Origin: Asanoa sp. WMMD1127
Lineage (GTDB): Bacteria; Actinomycetota; Actinomycetes; Mycobacteriales; Micromonosporaceae
Length of the DNA: 64,000 nucleotides
Assembly (NCBI RefSeq): GCF_029626225.1
Contig: NZ_JARUBP010000001.1
Location: 3,596,001-3,660,000 of the forward strand
Direction: 5' to 3'
Position numbers and translations under genes: made by a program. Shown here one piece after another: positions 8,476-56,284 of the stretch. The notes under the pieces are model-generated. The model did not search any database. It was not told the origin of the DNA and saw nothing but the letters and a program-made list of their open reading frames with translations. Every line of letters starts with the position of its first letter. Within the stretch, counting starts at the first letter, position 1.

Positions 8476-8763
8476 TCCTTTGTGGTTTCGGTCACTGGGC
8501 CGGTCCGGTCGCCGGGCGGGCGCGATCGGGGCGGTCCGGGCGGTGCCTCCGATCTGGATTGGAGGGTCCGTTCGGCCGCGATCCGGGCGGCTGATCTTGG
8601 GATATCGGCGCTCGCGGGACGGTCGTACGGGTGACGTTTCGGCCCGTCCGGATCCGGTAGGGCGCGCGGAGCCCCCAGGGGGTACGGTCGGCGTGGCGTC
8701 CGGCGAGCGGGTACGGCCGCCCACGCCGGTGGGGGAAGATGGTGCCATGAAGGGCGGAGAGCG
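8476..8763. other. Intergenic region before the DUF2469 gene
   Basis: After the repeat array there is no supported gene in this stretch. It holds a possible -10 box TACGGT at 8683-8688 just after the CCCCCAGGGGG inverted repeat, and a GGAGAGCG ribosome binding site just before the ATG at 8764. Nothing else is recognised. Confidence 0.4.
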
Positions 8764-9087
8764 ATGAGCGCAGAGGATCTCGAGAAGTACGAGACCGAGA
8801 TGGAGCTGCAGCTCTACCGGGAATACCGCGATATCGTCCGCCAATTCTCCTATGTCGTCGAGACCGAGCGCCGCTTCTATCTGGCCAACCAGGTCGACCT
8901 GCACGTGCGCAACTCCGACGGCGAGGTCTATTTCGAGGTCGAGATGCACGACGCCTGGGTCTGGGACATGTACCGGCCTGCGCGGTTCGTCAAGAATGTC
9001 CGGGTCATGACCTTCAAGGACGTCAACGTCGAAGAGCTTGAGAAGCCGGACATCTCGCTGCCGGCCGATTCGGGCTTCGGCGGTTGA
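8764..9087 (+). CDS. DUF2469 family protein
   Basis: A 107-residue acidic soluble protein of the DUF2469 family, found almost only in actinobacteria next to rnhB. It starts MSAEDLEKYETEMELQLYRE and has the conserved core DIVRQFSYVVETERRFYLAN and VEMHDAWVWDMYR. The function is unknown; a role tied to RNase HII or a nearby pathway is suggested only by gene order. The ATG is well placed behind GGAGAGCG. Confidence 0.9.
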   Translation: MSAEDLEKYETEMELQLYREYRDIVRQFSYVVETERRFYLANQVDLHVRNSDGEVYFEVEMHDAWVWDMYRPARFVKNVRVMTFKDVNVEELEKPDISLPADSGFGG

Positions 9088-9121
9088 TCTTGGCTTAGCA
9101 GATCGGCGCCCGTCGTGGGCG

Positions 9122-9137
9122 TCATCCACAATCCACA
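9122..9137 (+). other. Two weak DnaA-box-like sequences
   Basis: TCATCCACA (9122-9130) and the overlapping CAATCCACA (9129-9137) resemble the DnaA box TTATCCACA with one and two mismatches. They lie in the gap before the M23 gene. The call is weak on its own. Confidence 0.25.
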
Positions 9138-9190
9138 GGCCGCCGTACGCCACGTTGCCGCCCCTTCCGGCCCAGGCCAGGCTGCCATGC

Positions 9191-9946
9191 ATGAATCGGT
9201 ACGCACTTCGTAACGCGGCGTTGTCCCTCGTCGCGATCTTCGCTGTGGTTGTGGTCGCCGTCCTGGTGCCGGTCGGGCCTGCGCGGTCGTCGGGGCGGTA
9301 TGGGTCCGCGGTGGCCGCGGCCGGGGTCGGTGGCCTCCGGCACGGTGTCGGGGTCCGCGGAGATCCGGCTGGCATGGTGCTGGTGTCGGCCCTGGTCGAC
9401 CGGCAGGCGCTGGTTCGGTCGGGGCTGGTTCGGTCGGGGCTGGTTCGGTCGGGGCTGGCTCGGTCGGGGCTGGCTCGGCCGGCGCTGGACGACGGCTTGC
9501 CATCGGTGGATGTCGGCGCCCGGGGCGGTCGCGCGCCCGGTGGTGGGTTTCGACCGCCGGTCGAGCCGCCGTTGCGGGTGACCCGGCGGTTCGACGCGCC
9601 GGCGCAGAACTGGTTGCCGGGTCACCGGGGCGTCGACCTGGCGTCGGCTGCCGGCGCGACGGTGTGGGCGGCCGGTCCGGGCGTGGTCGCGTTCGCCGGT
9701 CCGGTGGCCGGGCGGTCGGTGGTCAGCATCGACCACCCCGGCGGCCTGCGGACCACCTATGAGCCGCTGGTCCCGGTGGTGCGACGCGGCGATCGGGTGG
9801 CCACCGGCGACCCGATCGGCATGGTCGAACCCGGCCATCCCGAGTGCGCGGCCACCGCCTGCCTGCACTGGGGCCTACGCCGCGGCGAGCAATACCTGAA
9901 CCCGCTTCTGCTGCTCGGCTTCCGGGTGCGACTGCTGCCGTTGTGA
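9191..9946 (+). CDS. M23 (LytM) family peptidase-like protein
   Basis: A 251-residue exported protein. Residues 10-27 form a signal or anchor segment. A low-complexity part made of LVRSG repeats (about residues 74-96) follows, then an M23 peptidase domain. Zinc ligands H145 and D149 (HRGVDL) and the late H226 (CLHWGL) are present. The first histidine of the usual HxH pair is a cysteine here (C224-L-H226). That histidine normally helps catalysis, so activity is uncertain, although related actinobacterial proteins share this pattern. It likely acts on peptidoglycan or as a regulator of amidases. I chose the ATG at 9191 because it directly precedes the signal segment. Confidence 0.8.
   Translation: MNRYALRNAALSLVAIFAVVVVAVLVPVGPARSSGRYGSAVAAAGVGGLRHGVGVRGDPAGMVLVSALVDRQALVRSGLVRSGLVRSGLARSGLARPALDDGLPSVDVGARGGRAPGGGFRPPVEPPLRVTRRFDAPAQNWLPGHRGVDLASAAGATVWAAGPGVVAFAGPVAGRSVVSIDHPGGLRTTYEPLVPVVRRGDRVATGDPIGMVEPGHPECAATACLHWGLRRGEQYLNPLLLLGFRVRLLPL
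9410..9484 (+). repeat. 15-bp in-frame tandem repeat (LVRSG)
   Basis: Five units of CTGGTTCGGTCGGGG or a close variant lie head to tail in the M23 peptidase gene and encode LVRSG/LARSG repeats between the membrane segment and the peptidase domain. The period of 15 keeps the frame, so copy number can vary without breaking the gene. Confidence 0.85.
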
Positions 9947-44114: not shown

Positions 44115-46514
44115 CTAGCCGCGGATGCGGCGGTTCTCCGGGTCGTACAACGGTTCCCTCACCACGGTGGCGTCCTGCCACCCGCCGAACATCCCTACCT
44201 CCACCCGCTCGCCAGGCTCCACAGTAGACGGAAGGTAGGCGTAGGCGATCGACGCCTCAACGCGGTAGCCGTAGCCGCCGGAGGTGACCCGGCCGACCGG
44301 TTCCCCCGCCACCCGGACCGGTTCCGTGCCCAGGCAGACGGCCGTCGGGTCGTCGAGGACCAGGCAGCGCAGGCGGCGCGTCGGGGACGCGCCCCGTAAC
44401 GCGGCGCTGCCCAGGAAGTCCTTGTCGGTCCGGACCGCGAACGACAGCCCGGCCTCGTTCGGCGTGGTCTCGGGCGTGATGTCCGAGCCCCACACCCGGT
44501 AGCCCTTCTCCAGCCGCATCGACTCGATGGCCCGGTAGCCCGCCGGGCGCAGGCCGTGTGGCGCGCCCGCGTCGACCATCAGGTCCCAGAGCGTCAGGAC
44601 GTACTCCGTCGGCGCGTAGAACTCCCAGCCGAACTCACCCACGAAGGTCACCCGTTGGGCCAGCACCGGCACCGGGCCCAGCGTGACCCGGCTCGCCCGC
44701 ATGAAGCGGGTGTCGAGCGAGCCGTCGACCAGCGGCGCCACGATCTCGCGGGCGGCCGGACCCCACAGGCACAGGCAGCCGTACGCACCGGTCACGTCGT
44801 CTACCACCACGTCCGCGGGGGCGTGGCGGCGCAGCCAGGCGGCGTCGCGTACCCCCGAAGCCGTGCTGGTCACGACGCGGAAGTGGTCCGGCCCCAGGCG
44901 GGTCACGGTCAGGTCGGCCTCGATGCCGCCGCGGGCGTTCAGCAGCTGCGTGTAGGTCACCGCGCCCACCGGACGGGAGACGTCGTTGGCGCACATCCAC
45001 TGGAGAAAGGCGGCCGCGCCAGGCCCGCGGACGTCCAGCTTCGCGAACGACGACTGGTCGAACAGGCCCGCCGCCGACGCGGTCGCCCGGCACTCAGCGG
45101 CGATCGCCGGCGACCACACCCGACCCGCCCAGCCGGCGGGACGCACGGCGTCGGGGTCCGACGGCCGCGCCGGGAACCAGTTCACCCGCTCCCAGCCGGC
45201 CTTCTCGCCGAGCGCGGCCTCCAGCGTCCGCGGCCAGATCGCCGAGCGGCGCAGCGGTCGCCCGGCCGTCCACTCGGTGTGCGGATAGACCACGTCGTAG
45301 TAGCGGGAGTACGCGTCGAGCGCCTTGGCCGTCGCCCAGGACCGGCTGGCCGCGTGCGGGCCGAACCGGCGGATGTCCATGGTGGACATGTCGAGTTCCG
45401 GCTGGCCGTCGACGATCCACTCCGCGATCGCCTTGCCGACACCGCCGGCGGCCGCGAGACCGTGCACGCAGAAGCCGGCCGCCACCCAGAAGCCGCGTAC
45501 CGCCGTCTCGCCCAGCAGGAACTCGCCGTCGGGCGTGAACGCCTCGGCGCCGTTGACCACCCGCGCGATCGACGCCGAGCGCAACGCGGGCACCCGACGC
45601 CGGCCGGCCGCCCAGGACTCCGCGAACAGCGAAAGGTCCGGCGGGAACAGCGATCGCGGCGACGCCAGCGGTGGTCCCGACGACGGCCAGCACACCGGCG
45701 GCGTGCGGATGTACCCGCCGATCAACAGCCCGTCCGGCGGATCGCCGCCGCCACGGAAGTAGACGATGTGGTCCGGGTCGCGCACCGTCGGCAGGGCCGG
45801 CAGGTCGTCGAGGGGGAGCGGCGAGCTGACCACGTACTGGTGCTTGATCGGCACGACCGGGATCGCGACCCCCGCGAGCGCGCCGACGTGCCCGGCCGCC
45901 GCGCCGGCCGCGTTGACCACGATCTCGGTGGCGACCCGGCCGTGCGACGTCTCCACCGCGGCGACCCGGCCGCCGACCACCTCGACCCCGGTCACGGTGA
46001 CCCCGGTCGCGATGGTGACGCCGAGCGAACGGGCACCCGCCGCCAGCGCGCCGGCCAGCGCGTCCGGCCGCAGGTAGCCGTCGCCGGGCAGCCAGCCGGC
46101 CGACCGCACGTCCGACACGTCCAGGAAAGGCATCCGCGTCGCCAGGGCGGCGGGGGAGAGCAATTCCATCTCCAGGCCGTACGTCGTCGCCGAGGACGCC
46201 TGGCGCAGCAGCTCCTCCTCGCGCGCGGGCGTCGTGGCCAGCCGGACGCCGCCGACGCCACGCCACCCGGGGTCCAGACCCGTGCGCTCGGCCAGCTCGG
46301 CGTAGAGCGACGACGAATACATGATCATGCGGGTCTGGCTGATCGTGGAGCGCAGCTGGCCTACGAAGCCCGCCGAATGCCAGGTGGTGCCCTCGGTCAG
46401 CTCGTGCTGCTCGAGCAGCAGCACGTCGGTCCAGCCCAGCCGGGCCAGGTGGTAGGCGATGCTGCAGCCCGCGACCCCGCCACCGACGATCACCACGCGC
46501 GCTTCGGTCCGCAC
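44115..46514 (-). CDS. FAD-dependent oxidoreductase fused to GcvT domain (dimethylglycine dehydrogenase-like)
   Basis: A 799-residue enzyme of the sarcosine/dimethylglycine dehydrogenase family. The N-terminal FAD-binding fold starts VVIVGGGVAGCSIAYHL, with H46 in TTWHSAG at the place of the histidine that covalently holds FAD in dimethylglycine dehydrogenase. The C-terminal half (from about residue 430) is a GcvT-like, tetrahydrofolate-binding domain with WMCANDVSRPVGAVTYTQLLN and EKGYRVWG. Such enzymes remove N-methyl groups and pass the one-carbon unit to folate. It is divergent from the kinase-permease side of the amine cluster and shares its control region, which suggests a linked amine substrate. 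Confidence 0.88.
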   Translation of the reverse strand: MRTEARVVIVGGGVAGCSIAYHLARLGWTDVLLLEQHELTEGTTWHSAGFVGQLRSTISQTRMIMYSSSLYAELAERTGLDPGWRGVGGVRLATTPAREEELLRQASSATTYGLEMELLSPAALATRMPFLDVSDVRSAGWLPGDGYLRPDALAGALAAGARSLGVTIATGVTVTGVEVVGGRVAAVETSHGRVATEIVVNAAGAAAGHVGALAGVAIPVVPIKHQYVVSSPLPLDDLPALPTVRDPDHIVYFRGGGDPPDGLLIGGYIRTPPVCWPSSGPPLASPRSLFPPDLSLFAESWAAGRRRVPALRSASIARVVNGAEAFTPDGEFLLGETAVRGFWVAAGFCVHGLAAAGGVGKAIAEWIVDGQPELDMSTMDIRRFGPHAASRSWATAKALDAYSRYYDVVYPHTEWTAGRPLRRSAIWPRTLEAALGEKAGWERVNWFPARPSDPDAVRPAGWAGRVWSPAIAAECRATASAAGLFDQSSFAKLDVRGPGAAAFLQWMCANDVSRPVGAVTYTQLLNARGGIEADLTVTRLGPDHFRVVTSTASGVRDAAWLRRHAPADVVVDDVTGAYGCLCLWGPAAREIVAPLVDGSLDTRFMRASRVTLGPVPVLAQRVTFVGEFGWEFYAPTEYVLTLWDLMVDAGAPHGLRPAGYRAIESMRLEKGYRVWGSDITPETTPNEAGLSFAVRTDKDFLGSAALRGASPTRRLRCLVLDDPTAVCLGTEPVRVAGEPVGRVTSGGYGYRVEASIAYAYLPSTVEPGERVEVGMFGGWQDATVVREPLYDPENRRIRG

Positions 46515-46536
46515 CTGCGCAGTCCTACCACCAGAA

Positions 46537-46547
46537 AGGTCTGACCA
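46537..46547. promoter_or_regulatory. GntR/FadR-type operator candidate
   Basis: AGGTCTGACCA fits the TGGTNNGACCA-like inverted pattern of FadR-group GntR operators (GGTC-T-GACC). It lies in the divergent gap next to the 5' end of the FAD-GcvT gene, and a FadR-type gene is in the cluster. Confidence 0.45.
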
Positions 46548-46584
46548 AATCAGCTATCCGGTCAGTGAACTTTTAACCTCGTGA

Positions 46585-46616
46585 GTATTGACCCGCGTGA
46601 TCACGCGGGTCAACAC
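46585..46616. promoter_or_regulatory. 26-bp perfect palindrome, likely operator
   Basis: From 46588 to 46613 the sequence is a perfect palindrome with half-site TTGACCCGCGTGA; with one mismatch it extends to 46585-46616. It is central in the divergent gap between the FAD-GcvT gene and the kinase-permease genes. It could be a regulator site or form a cruciform or hairpin. Confidence 0.65.
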
Positions 46617-46655
46617 TCCCGCCTAGGAGAACGGGGGCATGCGGCGGAGGCGGGC

Positions 46656-47606
46656 ATGCGGATGGCGGAGCGACCCGAGGCGGGCGACGTGCTGCGCCGC
46701 GTCTCGCTCTTCGCCGATCGTCCGGTGCGCGCCACCCCGGTCGCCGGTGGACTGTCGCACCACATCTGGCGCGTCGACACCGGTGGGCGCAGCTATCTGT
46801 TGCGGGTGCTCGACCCGGCGGTTTCCGCGGCCGGCCTGGGCATCCCGCCCGAGCAGGAGATCGAGAACACCCGGCGGGCGGCCGACAGCGGTGCCGGCGC
46901 CCGGGTGATCGAGGTGCTGCCCGACGTGCCGGCGCTCGTGCTGGAGTTCCTGCCGGGCCGCACGCTGCACGCCGACGACGTGCGGGCCGACGAGGCGATC
47001 CCCAAGCTGGCGGCCGCGTGCCGGCGGCTGCACGCCGGCCCGGCCTTCGCCAACGACTTCGACATCCTGGCCAAGCGGCGCGAGCTGCTCGACATCTGCC
47101 GCCGGCACGACCTGGGAATCCCGGCCGGCTACCACGACCGACAGTCCATCGTGGACGCGATCGGCGTCGCGATCGCGCGGCAGCCGGCCCAGGTAAGACC
47201 GTGCCACAACGACCTGCTGCCCGAGAACTTCATCGACCTGGCCGGCGACGTGCGCATCGTCGACTACCAGCTGTCCGGCAACAACGACCCGGCCTTCGAG
47301 CTGGGTGACATAGCGGCCGAGGCCGACTTCGACCCCGACCGGACGGCGGCCCTCGCGACCGCCTACTACGGCACGGAGACCGTACCCGCGCTGATCGCCC
47401 GGGTCCGGCTCAACCAGGTTCTGTCCAATGTCACCTGGACGCTCTGGTTCTCCGTGCACCACGGCCTGTTGAGCGCGCGCACGTCGACCTTCGACTACGC
47501 GGGCGAAGCGGCCGACAAATGGGCCCGGGCCACCCGCGATCTCGACGCACCCGAGCTGGGACGCCTGATCGACGCCGCCGCGGGCCGCACGGCCACCCCG
47601 TTATGA
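46656..47606 (+). CDS. Choline/ethanolamine kinase-like phosphotransferase
   Basis: A 316-residue protein of the choline kinase/aminoglycoside phosphotransferase superfamily. The catalytic loop is CHNDLLPENFIDL (Brenner motif H-x-D-x4-N), followed by IVDYQLSGNNDPAFELGDIAAE with the metal aspartate. The N-terminal nucleotide-binding lobe has SHHIWRVDTGGRSYLLRVL. Such kinases phosphorylate choline, ethanolamine or thiamine. Here it leads an apparent operon with the permease and the ligase genes. I chose the ATG at 46656 because of GGAGG upstream. Confidence 0.82.
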   Translation: MRMAERPEAGDVLRRVSLFADRPVRATPVAGGLSHHIWRVDTGGRSYLLRVLDPAVSAAGLGIPPEQEIENTRRAADSGAGARVIEVLPDVPALVLEFLPGRTLHADDVRADEAIPKLAAACRRLHAGPAFANDFDILAKRRELLDICRRHDLGIPAGYHDRQSIVDAIGVAIARQPAQVRPCHNDLLPENFIDLAGDVRIVDYQLSGNNDPAFELGDIAAEADFDPDRTAALATAYYGTETVPALIARVRLNQVLSNVTWTLWFSVHHGLLSARTSTFDYAGEAADKWARATRDLDAPELGRLIDAAAGRTATPL

Positions 47607-47627
47607 CCGCCTCAAGGAGGTGTTGCA

Positions 47628-49199
47628 GTGACGACCACGTCGCCCGAGACGGGTGAGCAGCCACTGGACGACGATGCCCAGCGGCTCGCGGAACTCGGCT
47701 ACAAGCAGGAACTTCGGCGCAAGTGGAGCGGCTTCTCCAACTTCGCCATCTCGTTCTCGATCATCTCGATCCTGGCCGGCTGCTTCACCACGTTCGGCCA
47801 GGCCTGGAACAACGGCGGCCCGATCGCCATCTCCTGGGGCTGGCCGCTGATCTCGGCGTTCATCCTGATCATCGGGCTCTGCATGTCGGAGCTCGTCTCG
47901 GCGTACCCCACCGCCGGCGGCATCTACTGGTGGGCCGCGAAGATGGGCAAGCCGGTGCACGGCTGGTTCACCGGCTGGCTCAACCTGGTGGGCCTCATCG
48001 CGGTGACCGCGTCGGTCGACTACGGCTGCGCCACGTTCCTCAACCTGACGCTGTCGGCGCTGTTCGACGGGTGGGCCGGCACGCTCAACCAGGCGTTCCT
48101 CCTCTTCGTGATCATCCTGGCGCTGCACGGCATCATCAACATCTGGGGTCACGCGATCATCGACATCCTCCAGAACGTCTCGGTCTGGTGGCACGTCGCG
48201 GGCGCGGCCGCGGTGGTGCTGATCCTGGTGTTCGTGCCGGACAACCACCAGAGCTTCCAGTTCGTCTTCACCGAGCGGTTCAACAACTCCGGCTTCGGAA
48301 ACGGCGACCACAACGGGTTGATGTTCTGGTTCTTCATCCTGCCGCTGGGCTTCCTGCTCACGCAGTACACGATCACCGGCTTCGACGCCTGCGCGCACGT
48401 GTCGGAGGAGACCCGCGGCGCCTCGCACGCGGCGGCCCGGGGCCTCTGGCAGTCGATCTTCTATTCGGCCATCGGCGGCTGGATCCTGCTGCTGGCGTTC
48501 CTGTTCGCCGCCACCGACGTCGACGCGATCAACGAGGCCGGCGGCTTCTCGGGCGCCATCTTCGAGACCGCGCTGACCCCGGTGTTCTTCAAGATCGTCA
48601 TCATCATCTCGACGATCGGCCAGTTCTTCTGCGGCATGAGCTGCGTGACGTCCATGTCGCGGATGACCTACGCGTTCAGCCGCGACCGCGCCGTCCCCGG
48701 CTGGCGGCTCTGGTCGAAGGTCAACCGCGACGGCACCCCGGTGTACGCGATCATCGCCGGCACCGTCGCCGGCGGCGTGCTCACCCTGCCGGCCCTCTAC
48801 CAGTACAACGGCATCCCGGTCGCCTTCTACGCCGTCGTTTCGGTGGCGGTGATCGGCCTCTACCTCGCGTTCCTCATCCCGATCGCGCTGCGGCTCCGGA
48901 TGGGCGACCGGTTCCGCCCGGGCCCGTGGACGCTGGGCTCCCGCTACAAGGTGCTCGGCTGGATCGCGGTGATCGAGATCGCGATCATCTCGATCTACTT
49001 CATCATGCCGTTCACCCCGGCCGCGGTCCCGTTCAGCGACGACTTCACGTGGAGCGCGGTCAACTACGCGCCGCTGGCCGTCGGCGGCGTGCTGCTCGCG
49101 GTGTGGCTCTGGTGGTTGCTCTCGGCCCGCAAGTGGTTCACCGGCCCGCGCCGTACGATCGAGGAACCGGGCGTGGCCGACGCATGGAAGACGCCCTGA
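47628..49199 (+). CDS. APC family amino acid/choline-type permease
   Basis: A 523-residue transporter with 12 predicted helices of the amino acid/choline transporter branch of the APC superfamily. The family start is GFSNFAISFSIISILAGCFTTF (written here as pattern GFSNFAISFS and SILAGC), then SAYPTAGGIYWWAA and the late SRMTYAFSRDRAVP. The branch moves GABA, choline, amines or amino acids. It begins 21 bases after the kinase gene behind AAGGAGG, so it is co-transcribed. In this cluster it is the likely importer of the amine substrate. Confidence 0.88.
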   Translation: MTTTSPETGEQPLDDDAQRLAELGYKQELRRKWSGFSNFAISFSIISILAGCFTTFGQAWNNGGPIAISWGWPLISAFILIIGLCMSELVSAYPTAGGIYWWAAKMGKPVHGWFTGWLNLVGLIAVTASVDYGCATFLNLTLSALFDGWAGTLNQAFLLFVIILALHGIINIWGHAIIDILQNVSVWWHVAGAAAVVLILVFVPDNHQSFQFVFTERFNNSGFGNGDHNGLMFWFFILPLGFLLTQYTITGFDACAHVSEETRGASHAAARGLWQSIFYSAIGGWILLLAFLFAATDVDAINEAGGFSGAIFETALTPVFFKIVIIISTIGQFFCGMSCVTSMSRMTYAFSRDRAVPGWRLWSKVNRDGTPVYAIIAGTVAGGVLTLPALYQYNGIPVAFYAVVSVAVIGLYLAFLIPIALRLRMGDRFRPGPWTLGSRYKVLGWIAVIEIAIISIYFIMPFTPAAVPFSDDFTWSAVNYAPLAVGGVLLAVWLWWLLSARKWFTGPRRTIEEPGVADAWKTP

Positions 49200-49258
49200 C
49201 GCTGCGACCCACGCGGCCGGCGCGCGTCGCCGGCCGCGCGGGATTGGGGGTACGCCCA

Positions 49259-50464
49259 ATGCCCACCGACGCCGCCCGGAAGCGGGCCCGCCGCCCGCCT
49301 CCGGCCGCGGCCGACCCGACACCCGCGGAACCCACCGCGTCCGCCGCGACGGCCAGCCGGCAGCCCCTGGCGTCGGAGGCTGAGCTGACCCCCGCGGCGG
49401 CAAGCCGCCGGCCGCGTTCGGCGGAGGCTGGGCTGACCTCCGCGGCGGCAGGCCGCCGGCCGCGCTCGGCGGAGGCTGGGCTGACAACCGCGGCGGCAGG
49501 CCGCCGGCCGCGCTCGGCGGAGGCTGGGCTGACAACCGCGGCGGCAAGCCGCCGGCCGCGCTCGGCGGAGGCTGGGCTGACAACCGCGGCGGCAAGCCGC
49601 CGGCCGCGTTCGGCGGAGGCTGGGCTGACGCCCGCGGCGCGAACGGAGGCGGGGACGGCCGAGCAGCGGTGGCGGTCGCTGGACGAGGCGATCCGGCCCG
49701 GCCGGCGGGCGGATCCGGCCGTCACCGAGGTGGCGGGCGTGCCGCTGTGGCGGCCCGTCCGCGGGGGCAACGCCTTCGAGATCACCGTTTCGCGGCTCGC
49801 GCAGGCCATCCGGCTCGGGCTCGTCGGCGAAGGTGACCGGCTGCCGCCCGAGCGGGAGCTCGCCGAGCAGCTCCAGGTCAGCCGGGTCACCCTGCGGGAG
49901 GCGATCCGGGCGCTGCGCGAGGCCGGCTTTCTCGAGTCGCGGCGCGGGCGGACCGGCGGCACCTTCGTGGTGACGCCGGGAACCGTCGAGAAGGGACGGC
50001 GGCCGACCCGGCCGAGGCACGGCGGCGCCGCCGAGCTGGCGCGGCGGATGGGCGACGCCCTGCACGACGCGCTCGACTTCCGGCGGGTGCTGGAGCCCGG
50101 GGCGGCGGGGCTGGCGGCGACCCGGACCCTCGCGGCCGTCGACCGACAGCGGCTCGTGGCCAGCCTGACCGCCTCCCGCGACCGCGACCCGGCCACCCGC
50201 CGCGTGGCCGACTCCCGGCTGCACCTGGCCATCGCGGCCGCGAGCGGGAGCCCGTCGCTGGCCGCGGCGGTGGCCGACGTGCAGCTCACGCTCGACGGTT
50301 TGCTGGCCAGCATTCCGGTCATCAAGAAGAACCTGGACCACTCCGACCTGCAACACACCCGGGTCGTCGACGCGATTCTCGCCGGGGACGCGGCCGCCGC
50401 GCGGGCGACGATGGAGGAGCACTGCGACGGGACCGCCGTGCTGCTGCGTGGCTTGCTCGGATGA
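49259..50464 (+). CDS. FadR-type GntR regulator with repeat-rich N-terminus
   Basis: A 401-residue regulator. The winged helix-turn-helix is at about residues 172-235 (LAEQLQVSRVTLREAIRAL and FLESRRGRTGGTFV). A FadR-type helical ligand-binding domain (about 255-395) follows. The first 165 residues are not part of the fold and hold five in-frame copies of a 16-residue repeat (residues 43-122). The homologous regulator next to glnA4 in Streptomyces coelicolor represses the gamma-glutamylethanolamide ligase gene. The ATG at 49259 is the likely start; a later one inside or after the repeats cannot be excluded. Confidence 0.78.
   Translation: MPTDAARKRARRPPPAAADPTPAEPTASAATASRQPLASEAELTPAAASRRPRSAEAGLTSAAAGRRPRSAEAGLTTAAAGRRPRSAEAGLTTAAASRRPRSAEAGLTTAAASRRPRSAEAGLTPAARTEAGTAEQRWRSLDEAIRPGRRADPAVTEVAGVPLWRPVRGGNAFEITVSRLAQAIRLGLVGEGDRLPPERELAEQLQVSRVTLREAIRALREAGFLESRRGRTGGTFVVTPGTVEKGRRPTRPRHGGAAELARRMGDALHDALDFRRVLEPGAAGLAATRTLAAVDRQRLVASLTASRDRDPATRRVADSRLHLAIAAASGSPSLAAAVADVQLTLDGLLASIPVIKKNLDHSDLQHTRVVDAILAGDAAAARATMEEHCDGTAVLLRGLLG
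49385..49624 (+). repeat. 48-bp in-frame tandem repeat in the GntR gene
   Basis: Five 48-bp units start at 49385, 49433, 49481, 49529 and 49577. Each holds CGGCGGCAAGCCGCCGG, a small inverted repeat, and encodes a 16-residue unit around ASRRPRSAEAGL. The period keeps the reading frame. Confidence 0.85.
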
Positions 50465-50515
50465 TTGACGCACCAATGGTTTACGAGTAGACCTTTTGCA
50501 ATGGAGGCGCGAGGA

Positions 50516-51883
50516 ATGACCCGAGAACCGGCGCTCACGCTCGAAGAGCTCGCGGTGGCCGTCGACGGCGGTGAGATAGACACCGTCGCGCTCGCGCTGA
50601 CCGACATGGAGGGCCGGCTGCAGGGCAAGCGGCTGCACGGCCGGTTCTTCCTCGACGAGGTCACCGAGGGCGGCGCGGAGGGCTGCAACTACCTGCTGGC
50701 CGTCGACGTCGACATGAACACCGTCGACGGCTACGCGATGTCGAGCTGGGAGCGCGGCTACGGCGACTTCGCGATGGTGCCCGACCTGTCCACCCTCCGC
50801 CGCGTACCCTGGCAGCCCGGCACCGCCCTGCTCCTCGCCGACCTGGCCTGGCTCGACGGCTCCGGAGACGTGAGCGCCAGCCCGCGGCAGATCCTGCGCC
50901 GCCAGCTCGACCGCCTCGCCGAGCACGGGCTGTCGGCCTTCGCCGGCACCGAGCTCGAGTTCGTCCTCTACCGGGACTCCTACGAGGACGCCTGGCAGCG
51001 CGGCTACCGCGAGCTGCACCCGGCCAACCTCTACAACGTCGACTACTCGCTGCTCGGCACCGCGCGGGTCGAGCCGCTGCTGCGCCGCATCCGCAACGAG
51101 ATGGCCGGCGCCGGACTGGTGCCGGAGAGCGCCAAGGGCGAGTGCAACCTCGGCCAGCACGAGATCGCCTTCCGCTACGCCGACGCGCTCACCTGCGCCG
51201 ACCACCACGTCATCTACAAGAACGGGGCCAAGGAGATCGCCGCCCAGGAAGGCATGTCGATCACCTTCATGGCCAAGCCCAACGAGCGGGAGGGCAACTC
51301 CTGCCACATCCACTTCTCGTTGCGCGACAGCGACGACCGCTCGGCGATGCTCGGCGACGGGCCGGCCCACCTGTCGAAGACGGGCCAGCACGCGCTGGCC
51401 GGCCTGCTGGCGACGATGCGCGAGTTCAGCGTGTTGTTCGCACCCAACATCAACTCCTACAAGCGCTACCAGCCCGGCTCGTTCGCGCCGACCGCGCTGC
51501 GGTGGGGCAGCGACAACCGCACCTGCGCGCTGCGGGTGGTCGGCCACGGCCAGGGCATGCGGGTGGAGAACCGGGTGCCGGGCGCCGACGTCAACCCCTA
51601 CCTCGCGATCGCCGCGCTGGTCGCGGGCACGATCCACGGCATCGAGCACGAGCTGCCCCTGGAGGCGGAGTTCACCGGCAACGCGTACGGCGACGACTCG
51701 TCCCCCCGCGTCCCCAGCACGCTGCGGGAGGCGGCCGCCCTGTGGGAGGAGTCGGAGATCGCGCGCGCGGCGTTCGGCGCCGACGTGGTCGACCACTACG
51801 CCAACCGGGCCCGGGTCGAGCTGGCCGCCTTCGACGCGGCGGTCACCGACTGGGAGCTGTTCCGCGGCTTCGAGCGGCTGTGA
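50516..51883 (+). CDS. Glutamine synthetase-like gamma-glutamyl-amine ligase
   Basis: A 455-residue member of the type I glutamine synthetase fold. Active-site blocks are AFAGTELEFVLY (with the metal glutamates), AKGECNLGQHEI, NGAKEIAAQEGMSITFMAKP, GNSCHIHFSL and RVPGADVNPYLAIAA. The housekeeping GlnA signature region is diverged, as in GlnA3/GlnA4-type ligases that glutamylate polyamines or ethanolamine. Next to a GntR regulator, an aldehyde dehydrogenase, a short-chain dehydrogenase and gamma-glutamyl hydrolases, it is the likely first enzyme of the pathway. I chose the ATG at 50516, eight bases behind GGAGG. Confidence 0.85.
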   Translation: MTREPALTLEELAVAVDGGEIDTVALALTDMEGRLQGKRLHGRFFLDEVTEGGAEGCNYLLAVDVDMNTVDGYAMSSWERGYGDFAMVPDLSTLRRVPWQPGTALLLADLAWLDGSGDVSASPRQILRRQLDRLAEHGLSAFAGTELEFVLYRDSYEDAWQRGYRELHPANLYNVDYSLLGTARVEPLLRRIRNEMAGAGLVPESAKGECNLGQHEIAFRYADALTCADHHVIYKNGAKEIAAQEGMSITFMAKPNEREGNSCHIHFSLRDSDDRSAMLGDGPAHLSKTGQHALAGLLATMREFSVLFAPNINSYKRYQPGSFAPTALRWGSDNRTCALRVVGHGQGMRVENRVPGADVNPYLAIAALVAGTIHGIEHELPLEAEFTGNAYGDDSSPRVPSTLREAAALWEESEIARAAFGADVVDHYANRARVELAAFDAAVTDWELFRGFERL

Positions 51884-51892
51884 GGGAGCACC

Positions 51893-53248
51893 ATGACCGA
51901 GCTGGTCAACCCGGCCACCGGGCTGCCGATCGAGACCGTGCCGGCGAGCAGTCCGGCCGACACCGACGCCGCCATCGAGCGTGCCGCCACGGCGTTTCCC
52001 GCGTGGCGGGCGCTGGCGCCCGGTGATCGCGCCCGGCTGCTGCGCCGGTTCGCCGCCGCCGTGGACGCCCACCTCGAGGAGCTCGCCGAGCTGGAGGTGC
52101 GCAACTCCGGCCACACGATCGGCAACGCGCGCTGGGAGGCCGGCAACGTCCGCGACGTGCTCGACTACTACGCGGGCGCGCCGGAACGGTTGATGGGCCG
52201 GCAGATACCGGTCGCCGGCGGTCTCGACGTGACGTTCCACGAGCCGCTCGGTGTCGTCGGCGTGATCGTGCCGTGGAACTTCCCGATGCCGATCGCCGGC
52301 TGGGGTTTCGCGCCCGCGCTGGCCGCCGGCAACACCGTGGTGCTCAAGCCGGCCGAGGTCACGCCGCTGACCGCGCTGCGCCTCGCGGAGCTGGCCCTCG
52401 AGGCCGGGTTGCCGGAGGGAGTGTTCACGGTCATCCCGGGCCGCGGCTCGGTGGTGGGGGAGCGGTTCGTCACCCACCCGGCCGTCCGCAAGGTCTGCTT
52501 CACCGGCTCCACCGAGGTCGGGAAGGGGATCATGCGGGGCTGTGCCGAGCAGGTCAAGCGGGTGACGCTGGAGCTGGGCGGCAAGAGCGCCAACATCGTC
52601 TTCGCCGACGCCGAGCTGGAGCGAGCGGCCGCGGGGGCGCCGGGTGCCGTGTTCGACAACGCCGGCCAGGACTGTTGCGCGCGCTCGCGGATCCTGGTGG
52701 AGCGCTCGGCGTACGACCGGTTCCTCGAACTGCTCGAGCCTGCGGTCAAGGCGTTCCGGGTGGAGGATCCGGCGCTGGAGACCGCCGAGATGGGTCCGCT
52801 GATCACCGCCGGCCAGCGGGCCTCGGTGGCGTCCTATGTGGATGACAGCGCTCGGGTGGCGTTCACCGGCACCGCCCCGGAAGGACCCGGTTTCTGGTAC
52901 GCGCCCACGGTCCTGCTCGCCGACTCGGTCGACGACCGGCACTGGCGCGAGGAGATCTTCGGCCCGGTCGTCTCGGTGCTGCCGTTCGACGACGAGGCCG
53001 ACGCGATCCGGCTGGCCAACGACACCGAGTACGGCCTGTCCGGCTCGATCTGGACCCGCGACGCCGGCCGGGCGATCCGGGTGGCCCGCGGCGTCGACAC
53101 CGGCAACCTGTCGGTCAACTCCAACTCGTCGGTCCGCTACTGGACACCGTTCGGCGGCATGAAGCAGTCCGGACTCGGCCGTGAGCTGGGCCCCGACGCG
53201 CTGCTCTCGTTCACCGACGTCAAGAACGTCTTCCTCGCCACAGACTGA
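51893..53248 (+). CDS. Aldehyde dehydrogenase (NAD-dependent)
   Basis: A 451-residue aldehyde dehydrogenase. The nucleophile is C261 in NAGQDCCA and the general-base glutamate is E227 in TLELGGKS. NAD-binding is seen in PWNFPMPIAGW and FTGSTEVGK. It follows the ligase by 9 bases and is followed closely by the SDR, so they form one operon. In the proposed pathway it would oxidise a gamma-glutamylated aldehyde to the acid. It is slightly short for the family but has all catalytic parts. Confidence 0.9.
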   Translation: MTELVNPATGLPIETVPASSPADTDAAIERAATAFPAWRALAPGDRARLLRRFAAAVDAHLEELAELEVRNSGHTIGNARWEAGNVRDVLDYYAGAPERLMGRQIPVAGGLDVTFHEPLGVVGVIVPWNFPMPIAGWGFAPALAAGNTVVLKPAEVTPLTALRLAELALEAGLPEGVFTVIPGRGSVVGERFVTHPAVRKVCFTGSTEVGKGIMRGCAEQVKRVTLELGGKSANIVFADAELERAAAGAPGAVFDNAGQDCCARSRILVERSAYDRFLELLEPAVKAFRVEDPALETAEMGPLITAGQRASVASYVDDSARVAFTGTAPEGPGFWYAPTVLLADSVDDRHWREEIFGPVVSVLPFDDEADAIRLANDTEYGLSGSIWTRDAGRAIRVARGVDTGNLSVNSNSSVRYWTPFGGMKQSGLGRELGPDALLSFTDVKNVFLATD

Positions 53249-53271
53249 CTCGCCACAGATTGAGAGGCTCG

Positions 53272-54036
53272 ATGAACAGGCTCCAGGACCGGGTTGCCGT
53301 GATCACCGGCGCCGGCAGCGGGATCGGCCTGGCCACCGCCCGCCGGTTCGCCGCCGAGGGCGCCAAGGTGATCTGTGTGGACGTCGGCGCCGAGGCCGGC
53401 AAGGCGGCGGCCGACGAGGTCGGCGGGGAGTTCGTGTTCTGTGACGTGGCCGACGAGGACAGCGTCCGCGACCTGTTCGACGGCGTCGCCGAGCGGCACG
53501 GCCGGGTCGACGTCGCCTTCAACAACGCGGGCATCTCGCCGCCCGACGACGACTCCATTCTGGAAACCGGACTCGACGCCTGGGAACGGGTCATCCGGGT
53601 CAATACCACCAGCGTCTATCTGTGCTGCAAGTACGCGATCCCGCAGATGCGCCGCCAGGGCAAGGGTTCGATCATCAACACCGCGTCGTTCGTGGCGCTG
53701 ATGGGCGCGGCAACCTCGCAGATCGCCTATACCGCGAGCAAGGGCGGAGTCCTCGCGATGACCCGTGAGCTGGGCGTCCAGTTCGCCCGGGAGGGCATCC
53801 GGGTCAACGCGCTGTGCCCCGGACCGATCGCCACGCCGCTGCTGCTGGAGCTGTTCGCCAAGGACCCGGAGCGGGCCGCGCGGCGCTTGGTGCACGTGCC
53901 GATGGGCCGGTTCGGCCAGCCGGACGAGATCGCGGCCGCGGTGGCCTTCCTGGCCAGCGACGACGCCTCGTTCATGACGGCGGCGCAATTTGTCGTCGAC
54001 GGCGGAATTACGGGGGCATACGTCACACCCCTGTAG
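53272..54036 (+). CDS. Short-chain dehydrogenase/reductase
   Basis: A 254-residue SDR. The NAD(P)-binding motif is ITGAGSGIGLATA near the start, NNAG is near residue 84, and the catalytic serine-tyrosine-lysine set is in the S-x-x-Y-x-A-S-K region of SQIAYTASKGG. Such enzymes interconvert alcohols and ketones or aldehydes. With the neighbouring aldehyde dehydrogenase it fits a two-step alcohol-to-acid oxidation. The ATG at 53272 follows GAGAGG; the longer TTG start 12 bases before is less likely. Confidence 0.88.
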   Translation: MNRLQDRVAVITGAGSGIGLATARRFAAEGAKVICVDVGAEAGKAAADEVGGEFVFCDVADEDSVRDLFDGVAERHGRVDVAFNNAGISPPDDDSILETGLDAWERVIRVNTTSVYLCCKYAIPQMRRQGKGSIINTASFVALMGAATSQIAYTASKGGVLAMTRELGVQFAREGIRVNALCPGPIATPLLLELFAKDPERAARRLVHVPMGRFGQPDEIAAAVAFLASDDASFMTAAQFVVDGGITGAYVTPL

Positions 54037-54098
54037 CGATCGTTTGGCGATCCGTTTGCCGGGTAGCAATGTTATCGGGGAGGAGGTTCTCAGCAACC

Positions 54099-54803
54099 GT
54101 GCGACCGATCGTCGGAATTACATCCTATGTAGAACCCGCTTCCTGGGGTGTGTGGCTCGACCAGGACGCGGCACTGATCAAAAAGGCCTACGTCGACGCG
54201 GTGACCGCCGCGGGCGGCCGGGCGGTGATATTGCCCCCCGATGACACCGACGCCGACGTGTTGCGCGCCCTCGACGCCTTGATCATCGCCGGCGGGGCGG
54301 ACCTCGGACCTGATCTCTACGGCGAGGCGCCCGGCCCCCTCACCGACAGCCGACCCGACCGCGACCGCGGCGAGTCCGTGCTGCTCGCGGCCGCCCTGCG
54401 GACCGACCTGCCGGTCCTGGGCATCTGCCGCGGCATGCAGCTGCTCGCCGTGACCTGCGGCGGCCGGCTGCACCAGCACCTGCCCGACGTGGTCGGCTCC
54501 GACAAGCACCGCCCGGCCCCCGGCGTCTACGGCTTCCACGGCATCACGCTGGAGCCCGGCTCGCTGGCCGCCGAGGTCGCCGGCGACGGCCCCGAGGGTG
54601 ACGGTCGCGTGGAGGTCAACACCTACCACCACCAGGGCGTGGCGGACCCGGGCACGCTGACGGTCACCGCCCGCGCCGACGACGGCGTCATCGAAGCGCT
54701 CGAGGACCCGGCCAAGCCGTACGTCCTGGGCGTCCAGTGGCACCCCGAAGAGTCCGGCGAACGCCGCATCTTCGAGTCGCTGATCGACGCCGCTCGCGGC
54801 TAA
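54099..54803 (+). CDS. Gamma-glutamyl-type hydrolase (class I glutamine amidotransferase, PuuD-like), copy 1
   Basis: A 234-residue class I amidotransferase-like hydrolase of the gamma-glutamyl-gamma-aminobutyrate hydrolase (PuuD) group. The catalytic triad is C110 in LGICRGMQ, H215 and E217 in GVQWHPEE. PuuD relatives cut gamma-glutamyl amides to free glutamate. It should release the final acid in this cluster. The GTG follows GGGGAGGAGG by 12 bases; an in-frame ATG at 54069 is possible. A second copy follows. Confidence 0.85.
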   Translation: MRPIVGITSYVEPASWGVWLDQDAALIKKAYVDAVTAAGGRAVILPPDDTDADVLRALDALIIAGGADLGPDLYGEAPGPLTDSRPDRDRGESVLLAAALRTDLPVLGICRGMQLLAVTCGGRLHQHLPDVVGSDKHRPAPGVYGFHGITLEPGSLAAEVAGDGPEGDGRVEVNTYHHQGVADPGTLTVTARADDGVIEALEDPAKPYVLGVQWHPEESGERRIFESLIDAARG

Positions 54804-54850
54804 AGGTCTGGGCGCCGCGGGTTTCCCACCGCGGGCCTGGCTCGACGCGC

Positions 54851-54908
54851 CAGCGAGTTTGTCCGGCGGGAGCGACGGTCCGGACCACCGCGGGCCCGGG
54901 ACCGCCCG
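54851..54908 (+). repeat. Dispersed intergenic repeat, copy D (short)
   Basis: CAGCGAGTTTGTCCGGCGGG continues into AGCGACGGTCCGGACCACCG and CCGGGACCGCCC. The left part of the element is missing compared with copies A-C. Confidence 0.6.
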
Positions 54909-54938
54909 GTTATTGGTTTTGAATCCCGCCTTTTCCGC

Positions 54939-54944
54939 TAGGGT
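54939..54944 (+). promoter_or_regulatory. -10 box TAGGGT, leaderless start for hydrolase copy 2
   Basis: TAGGGT ends 6 nt before the ATG at 54951. TTTTGA lies 16 nt further up as a weak -35 box. Confidence 0.45.
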
Positions 54945-54950
54945 GAGCTG

Positions 54951-55646
54951 ATGTCCCGGCCCGTGATCGGCCTGACCACCTACGCCGAAGAGGCGAGGTT
55001 CGGGCTCAACGACACGTTCGCCGCCGTGCTGCCGTTGGCCTACGTGCAGGCGGTGCACACCAGCGGCGGGCGCGCGGTGCTCATCACCCCTGACGCTCCC
55101 GACGTCGACGCGCTGGACGGGCTCGACGGCATCGTGTTCACCGGGGGCTCCGATGTCGACCCGGCGCTCTACGGCGAGCAGGCGCACCCCACGACCGTGG
55201 TCAAGTCCGAGCGCGACGCCGCCGAGCTGCTGCTGCTGCGCGCCGCGTTGGCCGCCGACCTGCCCGTGCTGGCGATCTGCCGGGGGATGCAGCTGATGAG
55301 CGTCGCCTACGGCGGGCGGCTCCACCAGCACCTGCCCGAGGTGCTCGGGCACGACAACCACCGGCCCGTGTCGGGTCCGAAGTTCGGGTTCCACCGGGTC
55401 GATCTCGCGCCCGGTTCGCTGGGGCGGCAGCTGCTCGGCGAGTCGGTGGAGGTCAACTCCTTCCACCACCAGGGCGTCGCCGACGCGGGCAAGCTGACCG
55501 CGACCGGCTGGTGCCCCGAGGACAACCTGATCGAGGTCGTCGAGGACCAGGCGCTGCGGTTCGCCATCGGCGTGCAGTGGCATCCGGAGGACACGACCGA
55601 CCATCGCTTGTTCGCGGCCCTGGTCGGGGCGGCTTCCAGCAGCTGA
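54951..55646 (+). CDS. Gamma-glutamyl-type hydrolase (PuuD-like), copy 2
   Basis: A 231-residue paralogue of copy 1 with the same triad: C110 in LAICRGMQ, H211 and E213 in GVQWHPED. Sequence divergence is large, so this is an old duplication. It starts 147 bases after copy 1 behind its own -10 box. It could be regulated apart from the operon and cut a different gamma-glutamyl product. Confidence 0.85.
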   Translation: MSRPVIGLTTYAEEARFGLNDTFAAVLPLAYVQAVHTSGGRAVLITPDAPDVDALDGLDGIVFTGGSDVDPALYGEQAHPTTVVKSERDAAELLLLRAALAADLPVLAICRGMQLMSVAYGGRLHQHLPEVLGHDNHRPVSGPKFGFHRVDLAPGSLGRQLLGESVEVNSFHHQGVADAGKLTATGWCPEDNLIEVVEDQALRFAIGVQWHPEDTTDHRLFAALVGAASSS

Positions 55647-55683: not shown

Positions 55684-55690
55684 CAAGGCC

Positions 55691-56284
55691 ATGGCCAAGT
55701 TGTACGAACGGATCGACGGCCGGTTGCGGGACTTCATCGAAGCCCAGCACATGTTCTTCGTGGCGACGGCGCCGTCCGGTGACGACGGTCACGTCAATCT
55801 GTCGCCGAAGGGCATGGGCGGCACGTTCGCGGTGCTGGGCGAGCACCGGGTGGCCTATCTCGACTTCCACGGCAGCGGGGCCGAGACGCTGGCCCACCTG
55901 CGGCAGAACGGCCGCATCACGCTGATGTTCTGCGCGTTCCAGGGGCCGCCGAACATCGTTCGGTTGCACGGGCAGGGTTTCTACACGCCGATCGGCGATC
56001 CGGACTGCGCGGCGTTGGTGGCGAATTTCCCGGACGCGCCGGATCTGGGCGGTCTTCGCGGTGTGGTCACCGTGGAGGTGAGCCGGGTGAGCGATTCGTG
56101 CGGCTATGCGGTGCCGCTGATGACCTATGAGGGTGACCGGGACGTGCTGTTGCAGTGGGCGTCACGGAAGGACGACGTGGCGTTGGCTGACTACCGCCGG
56201 AAGAAGAACGCGACCAGCATCGACGGGCTGCCGGCCTTCGACGTCGACGCGCCCGCCCCGGGCCGGCCGGCTACGGCCGCCTAG
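55691..56284 (+). CDS. Pyridoxamine 5'-phosphate oxidase-like FMN-binding protein
   Basis: A 197-residue protein of the split-barrel PNPOx-like group, usually an FMN- or F420-dependent reductase or a flavin-binding protein. Matching blocks are FFVATAPSGDDGHVNLSPKG near residue 22, AYLDFHGSGAETLAHL and RITLMFCAFQGPPNIVRLHG. No partner gene gives its job. It converges on the VIT-type gene. Confidence 0.85.
   Translation: MAKLYERIDGRLRDFIEAQHMFFVATAPSGDDGHVNLSPKGMGGTFAVLGEHRVAYLDFHGSGAETLAHLRQNGRITLMFCAFQGPPNIVRLHGQGFYTPIGDPDCAALVANFPDAPDLGGLRGVVTVEVSRVSDSCGYAVPLMTYEGDRDVLLQWASRKDDVALADYRRKKNATSIDGLPAFDVDAPAPGRPATAA

Follow-up and report, generated by a model that had tools for sequence, protein, structure and literature searches.

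A conserved kinase and FAD-GcvT gene pair as a putative methylethanolamine add-on to a GlnA4-type ethanolamine operon in Asanoa

The gamma-glutamylethanolamide genes of Streptomyces coelicolor form the cluster SCO1610-SCO1615, whose ligase, GlnA4, glutamylates ethanolamine in vitro and in which the alcohol, aldehyde and hydrolysis steps that would follow have been proposed to fall to SCO1611, SCO1612 and SCO1615, respectively; the figure legend to this cluster names a membrane protein, a short-chain dehydrogenase (SDR), an aldehyde dehydrogenase, GlnA4, a regulator, a glutamine amidotransferase and a putative transporter that is absent from S. coelicolor (PMC6529630). Here we describe a locus of this type at positions 44115-55646 of a 64,000-nucleotide stretch of the genome of Asanoa sp. 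WMMD1127 (contig NZ_JARUBP010000001.1, positions 3,596,001 to 3,660,000; hereafter the window), in which the ethanolamine genes stand beside genes for a choline/ethanolamine-kinase-like protein and for an N-demethylase-like protein with FAD-enzyme and GcvT domains (FAD-GcvT). On balance, we lean towards reading it as a GlnA4-type ethanolamine operon with a conserved two-gene add-on that would N-demethylate mono- and dimethylethanolamine to ethanolamine, on which GlnA4 could then act.

All genes named in the initial annotation of this stretch were recovered, each with the type given there, in Pfam and NCBIfam searches. The FAD-GcvT gene (44115-46514, minus strand; Pfam DAO, FAO_M, GCV_T and GCV_T_C) is divergent from an operon on the plus strand that encodes the kinase-like protein, a member of the APH group with 316 residues (46656-47606), an APC-type permease (47628-49199), an FCD-GntR regulator (49730-50464, with an uncertain start at 49730 or 49739), a gamma-glutamyl-amine ligase of the GlnA4 type related to glutamine synthetase (GS; 50516-51883), an aldehyde dehydrogenase (51893-53248), an SDR (53260-54036, alternative start 53272) and two PuuD-like Peptidase_C26 hydrolases, a (54099-54803, starting at GTG 54099 or ATG 54069) and b (54951-55646), all assigned by Pfam with the exception of the SDR, for which NCBIfam NF004713 scores 477 bits against a cut-off of 404, and with the ligase assignment resting on residues as well. 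Among the 10 proteins of the locus scanned against NCBIfam, the SDR alone exceeds the cut-off of its best model, those of the permease (TIGR00907) and the aldehyde dehydrogenase (PRK13473) scoring below theirs. The YxxxK motif of the SDR, the Cys and Glu of the aldehyde dehydrogenase and the HxDxxxxN motif of the kinase are intact, as are the catalytic Cys and the His-Pro-Glu of both hydrolases (Cys110 and HPE211 in b), whose sequences share 50% identity. The ligase reading frame opens at 50465, with ATG 50516 as the likely start, and for the kinase ATG 46656 is more likely than the start of a longer, 341-residue frame at 46581, because comparable starts give 314-316 residues in four Asanoa species and 337 and 345 in two Phytohabitans.

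By its sequence, the core of the locus is the published GlnA4-type ethanolamine operon and thus already known: regulator, ligase, aldehyde dehydrogenase, SDR, hydrolase and permease are found together, and all 13 GlnA4 residues compared (those of the metal, glutamate and ADP sites and the E327 position, taken from PMC6529630, with a two-residue insertion allowed) are present in the window ligase, including the Phe that replaces the flap residue E327. Two model-dependent ammonium-site positions given in the same source were inspected and excluded from this count (PMC6529630). The ligase is 93-95% identical to those of four Asanoa species, and in a tree of 70 rows, built by a quick method that gave long-branch warnings and in which the named Streptomyces GlnA2 and GlnA3 are absent, the three further GS genes of the 7.97 Mb genome fall outside the ligase group, on long branches. 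Against the gamma-glutamylputrescine synthetase model NF045547 it reaches 187.7 bits, far from the cut-off of 650. Its nearest solved relatives are 11zs (E 5e-122) and 5dm3 (E 1e-112), the latter presumably from Chromohalobacter, with 4hpp at 5e-25. The last of these is PauA7 (PMC6529630). The soluble gamma-glutamylation route for ethanolamine put forward in the initial annotation is thus supported by the GlnA4 residues and by the separation of the ligase from the other GS genes. The SDR that was said to replace an amine oxidase is indeed present, but neither it nor the route is new, because a short-chain dehydrogenase stands in the published figure legend and SCO1611 has already been proposed for the alcohol step (PMC6529630).

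What sets the locus apart is the pair formed by the kinase and FAD-GcvT. We sampled 197 Actinomycetes genomes (cut-offs of E<=1e-20 for the kinase and E<=1e-60 for FAD-GcvT and the ligase) and found the kinase in 33 genomes, at 34 places, FAD-GcvT in 67 and the ligase in 87. FAD-GcvT lies within 2 kb of the kinase at 28 of the 34 places, in 27 genomes, and at one further place (G127) it is cut by the contig edge. The two genes are therefore a conserved pair rather than loose neighbours, so that the "added N-demethylation branch" of the initial annotation corresponds to a real gene unit. The ligase is present in 31 of the 33 kinase genomes as against 56 of the other 164 (Fisher p 6e-11, a value that exaggerates certainty, the genomes being related and no correction for relatedness having been made), and the kinase lies within 5 kb of it at 9 of the 34 places, in several gene orders; this linkage may be undercounted, because some contigs end nearby. 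On the ligase tree, the presence of a kinase on the same retrieved stretch changes 10 times, compared with 21 in shuffles, as expected from repeated joining or loss. Linkage between kinase and ligase is accordingly recurrent but not obligate. The two modules also have a transporter in common: of 32 places with an orthologue of the permease, 11 hold the ligase and not the kinase, 11 the kinase and not the ligase, 8 both and 2 neither, which suggests related substrates. The window permease itself scores 32.3 bits against the ethanolamine permease model TIGR00908, whose cut-off is 381.75. These neighbourhood lists, compiled by hand, comprise 40 FAD-GcvT, 32 APC (at least 54% identity), 36 ligase and 34 kinase rows. 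The gene caller applied to retrieved loci misses or merges some genes, and one unannotated locus (H2) was left out of the counts.

In the family Micromonosporaceae (101 genomes sampled), we retrieved 20 kinase neighbourhoods in addition to that of the window. The ligase is found in 19 of them, one being a 3-kb contig that carries ligase and kinase, and 16 hold FAD-GcvT, kinase, APC permease, GntR regulator, ligase, aldehyde dehydrogenase and SDR together and in the order seen in the window, for which reason the arrangement is not due to chance; among these relatives four are Asanoa, and at least five are apparently the same genomes as named ligase loci described below. In two neighbourhoods (L245 and L246) FAD-GcvT is present twice, the APC permease is distant and the order differs, with the ligase still alongside, while a further one (L247) shows no ligase within its 10 kb. 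When named Micromonosporaceae loci were instead inspected around the ligase, both genes of the pair were seen in 6 of 80, of which 4 are from Asanoa and 2 from Phytohabitans. As for the wider context of the pair, a protein that reads as LipB (ORF cluster c7) stands beside it in family f17, which we judged to be ordinary context, and GntR-UTRA-type regulators (ORF clusters c10 and d12), distinct from the FCD-GntR associated with the ligase, occur near FAD-GcvT at seven loci (L158, L159, L173, L174, L177, L258 and L260; the assignment was checked with Pfam in L159, L177, L258 and L260).

The pair extends beyond these samples. Across 246 Actinomycetota genomes (ligase cut-off E<=1e-100; 47 FAD-GcvT rows listed), the kinase occurs in 27, at 34 places, with FAD-GcvT within 3 kb at 20 of these and an incomplete FAD-GcvT beside the kinase at one more (genome G442, contig C339, locus L265); the ligase is found in 17 of the 27 kinase genomes and in 48 of the other 219. 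Two kinase and FAD-GcvT pairs stand in tandem at four loci (L252, L254, L255 and L256), and at another (L253) the first kinase was missed by the gene caller, yet found by the kinase search. The four tandem loci also carry an APC-like permease (d3) and a protein that reads as nucleotidyltransferase-like (d2), and three of them (L252, L255 and L256) a metallophosphoesterase-like protein (d6). At locus L262, a Rieske oxygenase (8628-9872) that is weakly GbcA-like (168 bits, cut-off 670) adjoins the pair and may possibly carry out the first demethylation of a quaternary amine. Outside the phylum, plasmids of R. rosettiformans and Shinella (Rhizobiaceae) carry genes annotated as kinase and FAD-dependent oxidoreductase behind those of a betaine/choline-type ABC transporter, and roseobacter-type plasmids of Salipiger, Ruegeria and a Rhodobacteraceae strain combine a DeoR regulator, an FAD-dependent oxidoreductase and the kinase. 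Seven more distant kinase matches belong to another operon, from which such an oxidoreductase is absent; in one of them, from Paracoccus yeei, the operon continues into the ethanolamine ammonia-lyase EutBC. On the P. yeei plasmid (L204, 5738-10998), a Zn-dependent hydrolase, two phosphotransferase/kinase genes, EutB and EutC follow in one run, and related operons elsewhere include a hisN-type gene. Arthrobacter U41 has a choline kinase in the neighbourhood of the GlnA4-type cluster; judging from gene content, this locus and that of P. yeei both end in ethanolamine use.

Both proteins of the pair differ from their characterised relatives at specific positions. The nearest solved structure to FAD-GcvT is that of N,N-dimethylglycine oxidase (DMGO; 1pj5, E 2.9e-142), and the window protein resembles dimethylglycine oxidase and dehydrogenase (1pj5, 4p9s, 5l46) over nearly its full length, with their DAO-FAO_M-GCV_T architecture and His/Tyr dyad. 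In an alignment of 74 rows, the dyad equivalents His225 and Tyr252 are kept throughout, as is His46, probably the FAD-linking residue. The tree of these rows, made by a quick method that gave long-branch warnings, separates 54 rows with a tie to either the kinase or the ligase cluster from 14 that are DMGO-like and from 6 others, groups that were defined after the tree had been inspected; for 8 of the 54 the tie was assigned by hand, the kinase being cut by a contig edge (L170 and L171) or known from annotation (L193, L194 and L199), or ligase-cluster genes standing alongside (L177, L224 and L245). R55, G267, G352 and A354 are present in all 54, whereas the 14 DMGO-like rows have N, S or G at position 55 and W352, with T354 and H355 in 14 of 14 and S267 in 11; the group of 6, which includes a second FAD-GcvT encoded elsewhere in the window genome (36% identical), has R55 in 4 and G352 in 6 and never G267 or A354. 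The window protein, accordingly, has G267 and A354-A355 in place of S267 and T354-H355. Positions 267, 354 and 355 would line the substrate pocket, with 354 presumably at the place of the carboxylate-binding Lys348 of monomeric sarcosine oxidase. The comparison is not a sharp one, because mammalian dimethylglycine dehydrogenase also differs from DMGO at these positions. Lacking the residues of the DMGO-like rows, the window protein gives no support to dimethylglycine as a substrate, which the initial annotation had considered, as far as its sequence can tell. AlphaFold models from alignments of 7 rows (mean pLDDT 34 for FAD-GcvT and 44 for the kinase) were of no use for placing R55 and A354.

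The solved relatives of the kinase are 3dxq (E 2.9e-30) and the choline kinase LicA (4r77, E 2.9e-10). In the numbering of the 341-residue frame, the catalytic D176, N181 and D194 of LicA (PMC4364537) correspond to D211, N216 and D228, and its amine-pocket residues E213, W251 and W254 to E247, W286 and W289, while E196 and Y197 of LicA are replaced by Q and L in kinases of the window type. Among 105 aligned kinase rows, which include several loci from single genomes, Q and L are found at these two positions in 50, the window kinase included, and E and Y in 53 each. A supposed loss of LicA N32 was dropped, the alignment not reaching that stretch.

Taken together, these observations suggest a pathway whose substrates, we infer, are amino alcohols of the ethanolamine series. 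The APC permease would import them, kinase and FAD-GcvT would strip the N-methyl groups from mono- and dimethylethanolamine as methylene-tetrahydrofolate to leave ethanolamine, GlnA4 would join ethanolamine and glutamate, SDR and aldehyde dehydrogenase would take the alcohol to gamma-glutamylglycine, and the C26 hydrolases would release glutamate and glycine, with FCD-GntR as the putative repressor. Choline as a direct substrate, one of the extra substrates first proposed, was dropped, since FAD enzymes acting on quaternary amines are not reported (PMC10590968).

The order of kinase and demethylase may be either of two. It is possible, if rather doubtful, that the kinase acts first, phosphorylating the N-methylated ethanolamine, which FAD-GcvT would then demethylate to methylene-tetrahydrofolate, and that a phosphatase returns ethanolamine to GlnA4. 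In such phospho-base N-demethylation, the phosphate could substitute for the carboxylate in an enzyme otherwise like dimethylglycine dehydrogenase, with R55 as a possible anion contact. Such a route would run opposite to the methylation of phospho-bases in plants and nematodes. A precedent for the add-on, whichever the order, is provided by the FAD enzymes PbfB, PbfC and PbfD, which channel N-methyl aminoethylphosphonate towards a core pathway and are described as unreactive with sarcosine (PMC10590968), and because phospho-N-methylethanolamine is the phosphate analogue of their substrate, by analogy a kinase-first order would be chemically reasonable. Phosphatases, on the other hand, are patchy: as a fixed third partner they were rejected, a HAD-type gene adjoining the kinase in L159 and its ORF cluster recurring in L160, the matches to the calcineurin-like family in L252 and L256 being barely over the Pfam cut-off, with no single stretch passing it, and inositol-monophosphatase/hisN genes occurring in the distant kinase operons that have no FAD-GcvT. 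This patchiness neither supports nor kills a phosphorylated intermediate.

Several results weigh against demethylation of methylethanolamines as the role of the pair. In the phylum sample, the ligase is missing from 10 of the 27 genomes that have the kinase, which counts against strict dependence, and the kinases there are distant (26-40% identity, the window's own excepted). Within the class, kinase and ligase are far apart in 12 genomes, at 0.8-1.2 Mb on one contig in five of them (G151, G161, G003, G193 and G103) and on different long contigs in seven; in two genomes (G016 and G161) kinase and permease occur with no adjoining FAD-GcvT, in a third (G129) the kinase match has neither alongside, and 14 genomes of family f19 have the ligase with zero kinase matches. 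In the Micromonosporaceae the kinase is found in just 21 of 101 genomes, and neither gene of the pair is seen in 74 of the 80 named ligase loci, most of them from Micromonospora, Actinoplanes and related genera, some of these stretches being incomplete. Q230 and L231 of the window kinase stand where LicA has E196 and Y197, the 20 annotated window proteins include none recognised as a phosphatase, and a full-text search of the literature recognised no bacterial route of this kind for methylethanolamines.

Some of these points would also be expected if the pair acted on another imported amino alcohol with N-methyl groups, such as an aromatic or a sugar-like compound, the ligase cluster taking the demethylated product or sharing no more than the permease. 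The kinase genomes without a ligase, the altered LicA pocket residues and the weakly GbcA-like Rieske oxygenase at one locus, which makes other methylated amines possible, all fit this account, which we nonetheless hold to be unlikely because many genomes have the pair close to a ligase matching the ethanolamine-specific GlnA4. It is similarly improbable that the demethylase acts first and that its product, ethanolamine, is then either ligated or phosphorylated by the kinase. Membership of the kinase in the choline/ethanolamine kinase family and the lack of a recognised phosphatase among the annotated window proteins speak for it, but the pairing with FAD-GcvT persists in genomes without the ligase, and the tandem loci have one kinase per demethylase, which fits better with a kinase specific to the substrate of each demethylase. 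Least probable of all, FAD-GcvT would be an ordinary dimethylglycine or sarcosine dehydrogenase and the kinase an ethanolamine kinase for the salvage of lipid head groups, neighbours by chance or through loose one-carbon and nitrogen metabolism, a reading that draws on the nearest solved structures, the retained His225/Tyr252 dyad and the occurrence of R55 in 4 rows of the group of 6, which is mostly unlinked, but runs counter to the conservation of the pair across Actinomycetes and Alphaproteobacteria plasmids, to the differences at positions 55, 267, 354 and 355 from the DMGO-like rows and to the second FAD-GcvT gene in the genome. We keep to the add-on for methylated ethanolamines as our working interpretation.

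The spacer of the divergent FAD-GcvT and kinase genes contains an operator-like site of the form GGTnnnACC (GGTCTGACC, 46538-46546), which we take to be a FadR-type site and which may be bound by the FCD-GntR of the cluster. It is the sole GGTCnGACC in the 64 kb, and GGTnnnACC occurs in this spacer at 11 of 29 loci, including 5 of 5 in Asanoa, as against 2.3 expected from base shuffles, the loci being related. Sites of the close form number 18 in the vicinity of cluster genes, spread over 17 of 119 loci, and six of the 18 are within the divergent spacer; regulation stays a lead, because such sites are scarce beside the cluster genes of relatives with the core only. The same spacer holds a perfect 26-bp palindrome (46588-46613; 1 match, 0.02 expected), rejected as a common operator, since no palindrome with 7-bp arms is found in the spacers of four Asanoa relatives. 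A tandem array of 48 bp in 5.5 copies (95% match; 49374-49639) separates the permease and regulator genes, and a PNPOx-like protein is encoded 3' of hydrolase b (55688-56284), a position it also has in many named relatives.

Methylated ethanolamines derive from membrane lipids and plant bases. If our interpretation is correct, a small pair of genes that stand side by side in 27 of the 197 sampled Actinomycetes genomes, and that also occur on Alphaproteobacteria plasmids, extends an ethanolamine pathway to the methylated series, yielding one-carbon units, and provides a testable assignment for proteins annotated just as "phosphotransferase" or "FAD-dependent oxidoreductase". We did not meet the pair as an add-on of this kind in the literature searched.

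Of the known systems that come close, stepwise demethylation of di- to monomethylethanolamine and on to ethanolamine is described in methanogens, with the same intermediates and product as proposed here, and is a further precedent for the add-on (PMC7374477). That route is anaerobic and archaeal, and its enzymes, corrinoid methyltransferases, are unrelated to those of the window. PbfB, PbfC and PbfD share with FAD-GcvT a place among the FAD enzymes of the DAO group (PF01266) and, if our interpretation holds, an accessory role, acting in their case on an N-methylated phosphonate, and differ in their product, phosphonoacetaldehyde, with formaldehyde reported as undetected, and in their setting in phosphonate clusters (PMC10590968). 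A plasmid cluster of Aminobacter differs from the window in having an alcohol dehydrogenase of the iron type and a gene resembling N-formylglutamate amidohydrolase. To our knowledge, the three Pbf enzymes have no GcvT domain. For the core, the ethanolamine gamma-glutamylation operon of Phaeobacter is likewise composed of ligase, a dehydrogenase for the alcohol step, aldehyde dehydrogenase and amidohydrolase, with a TRAP transporter and an RpiR regulator in contrast to those of the window (PMC10132767). Closest remains the Streptomyces cluster, which has the same proposed route, ligase, aldehyde dehydrogenase, SDR and amidotransferase-like hydrolase, a regulator, EpuRI, adjoining the ligase in S. 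coelicolor as FCD-GntR does here, and, in other Streptomyces, a putative ethanolamine permease, and from which the window is set apart by a second C26 hydrolase and by the kinase and FAD-GcvT, neither of which is named in the published figure legend (PMC6529630).

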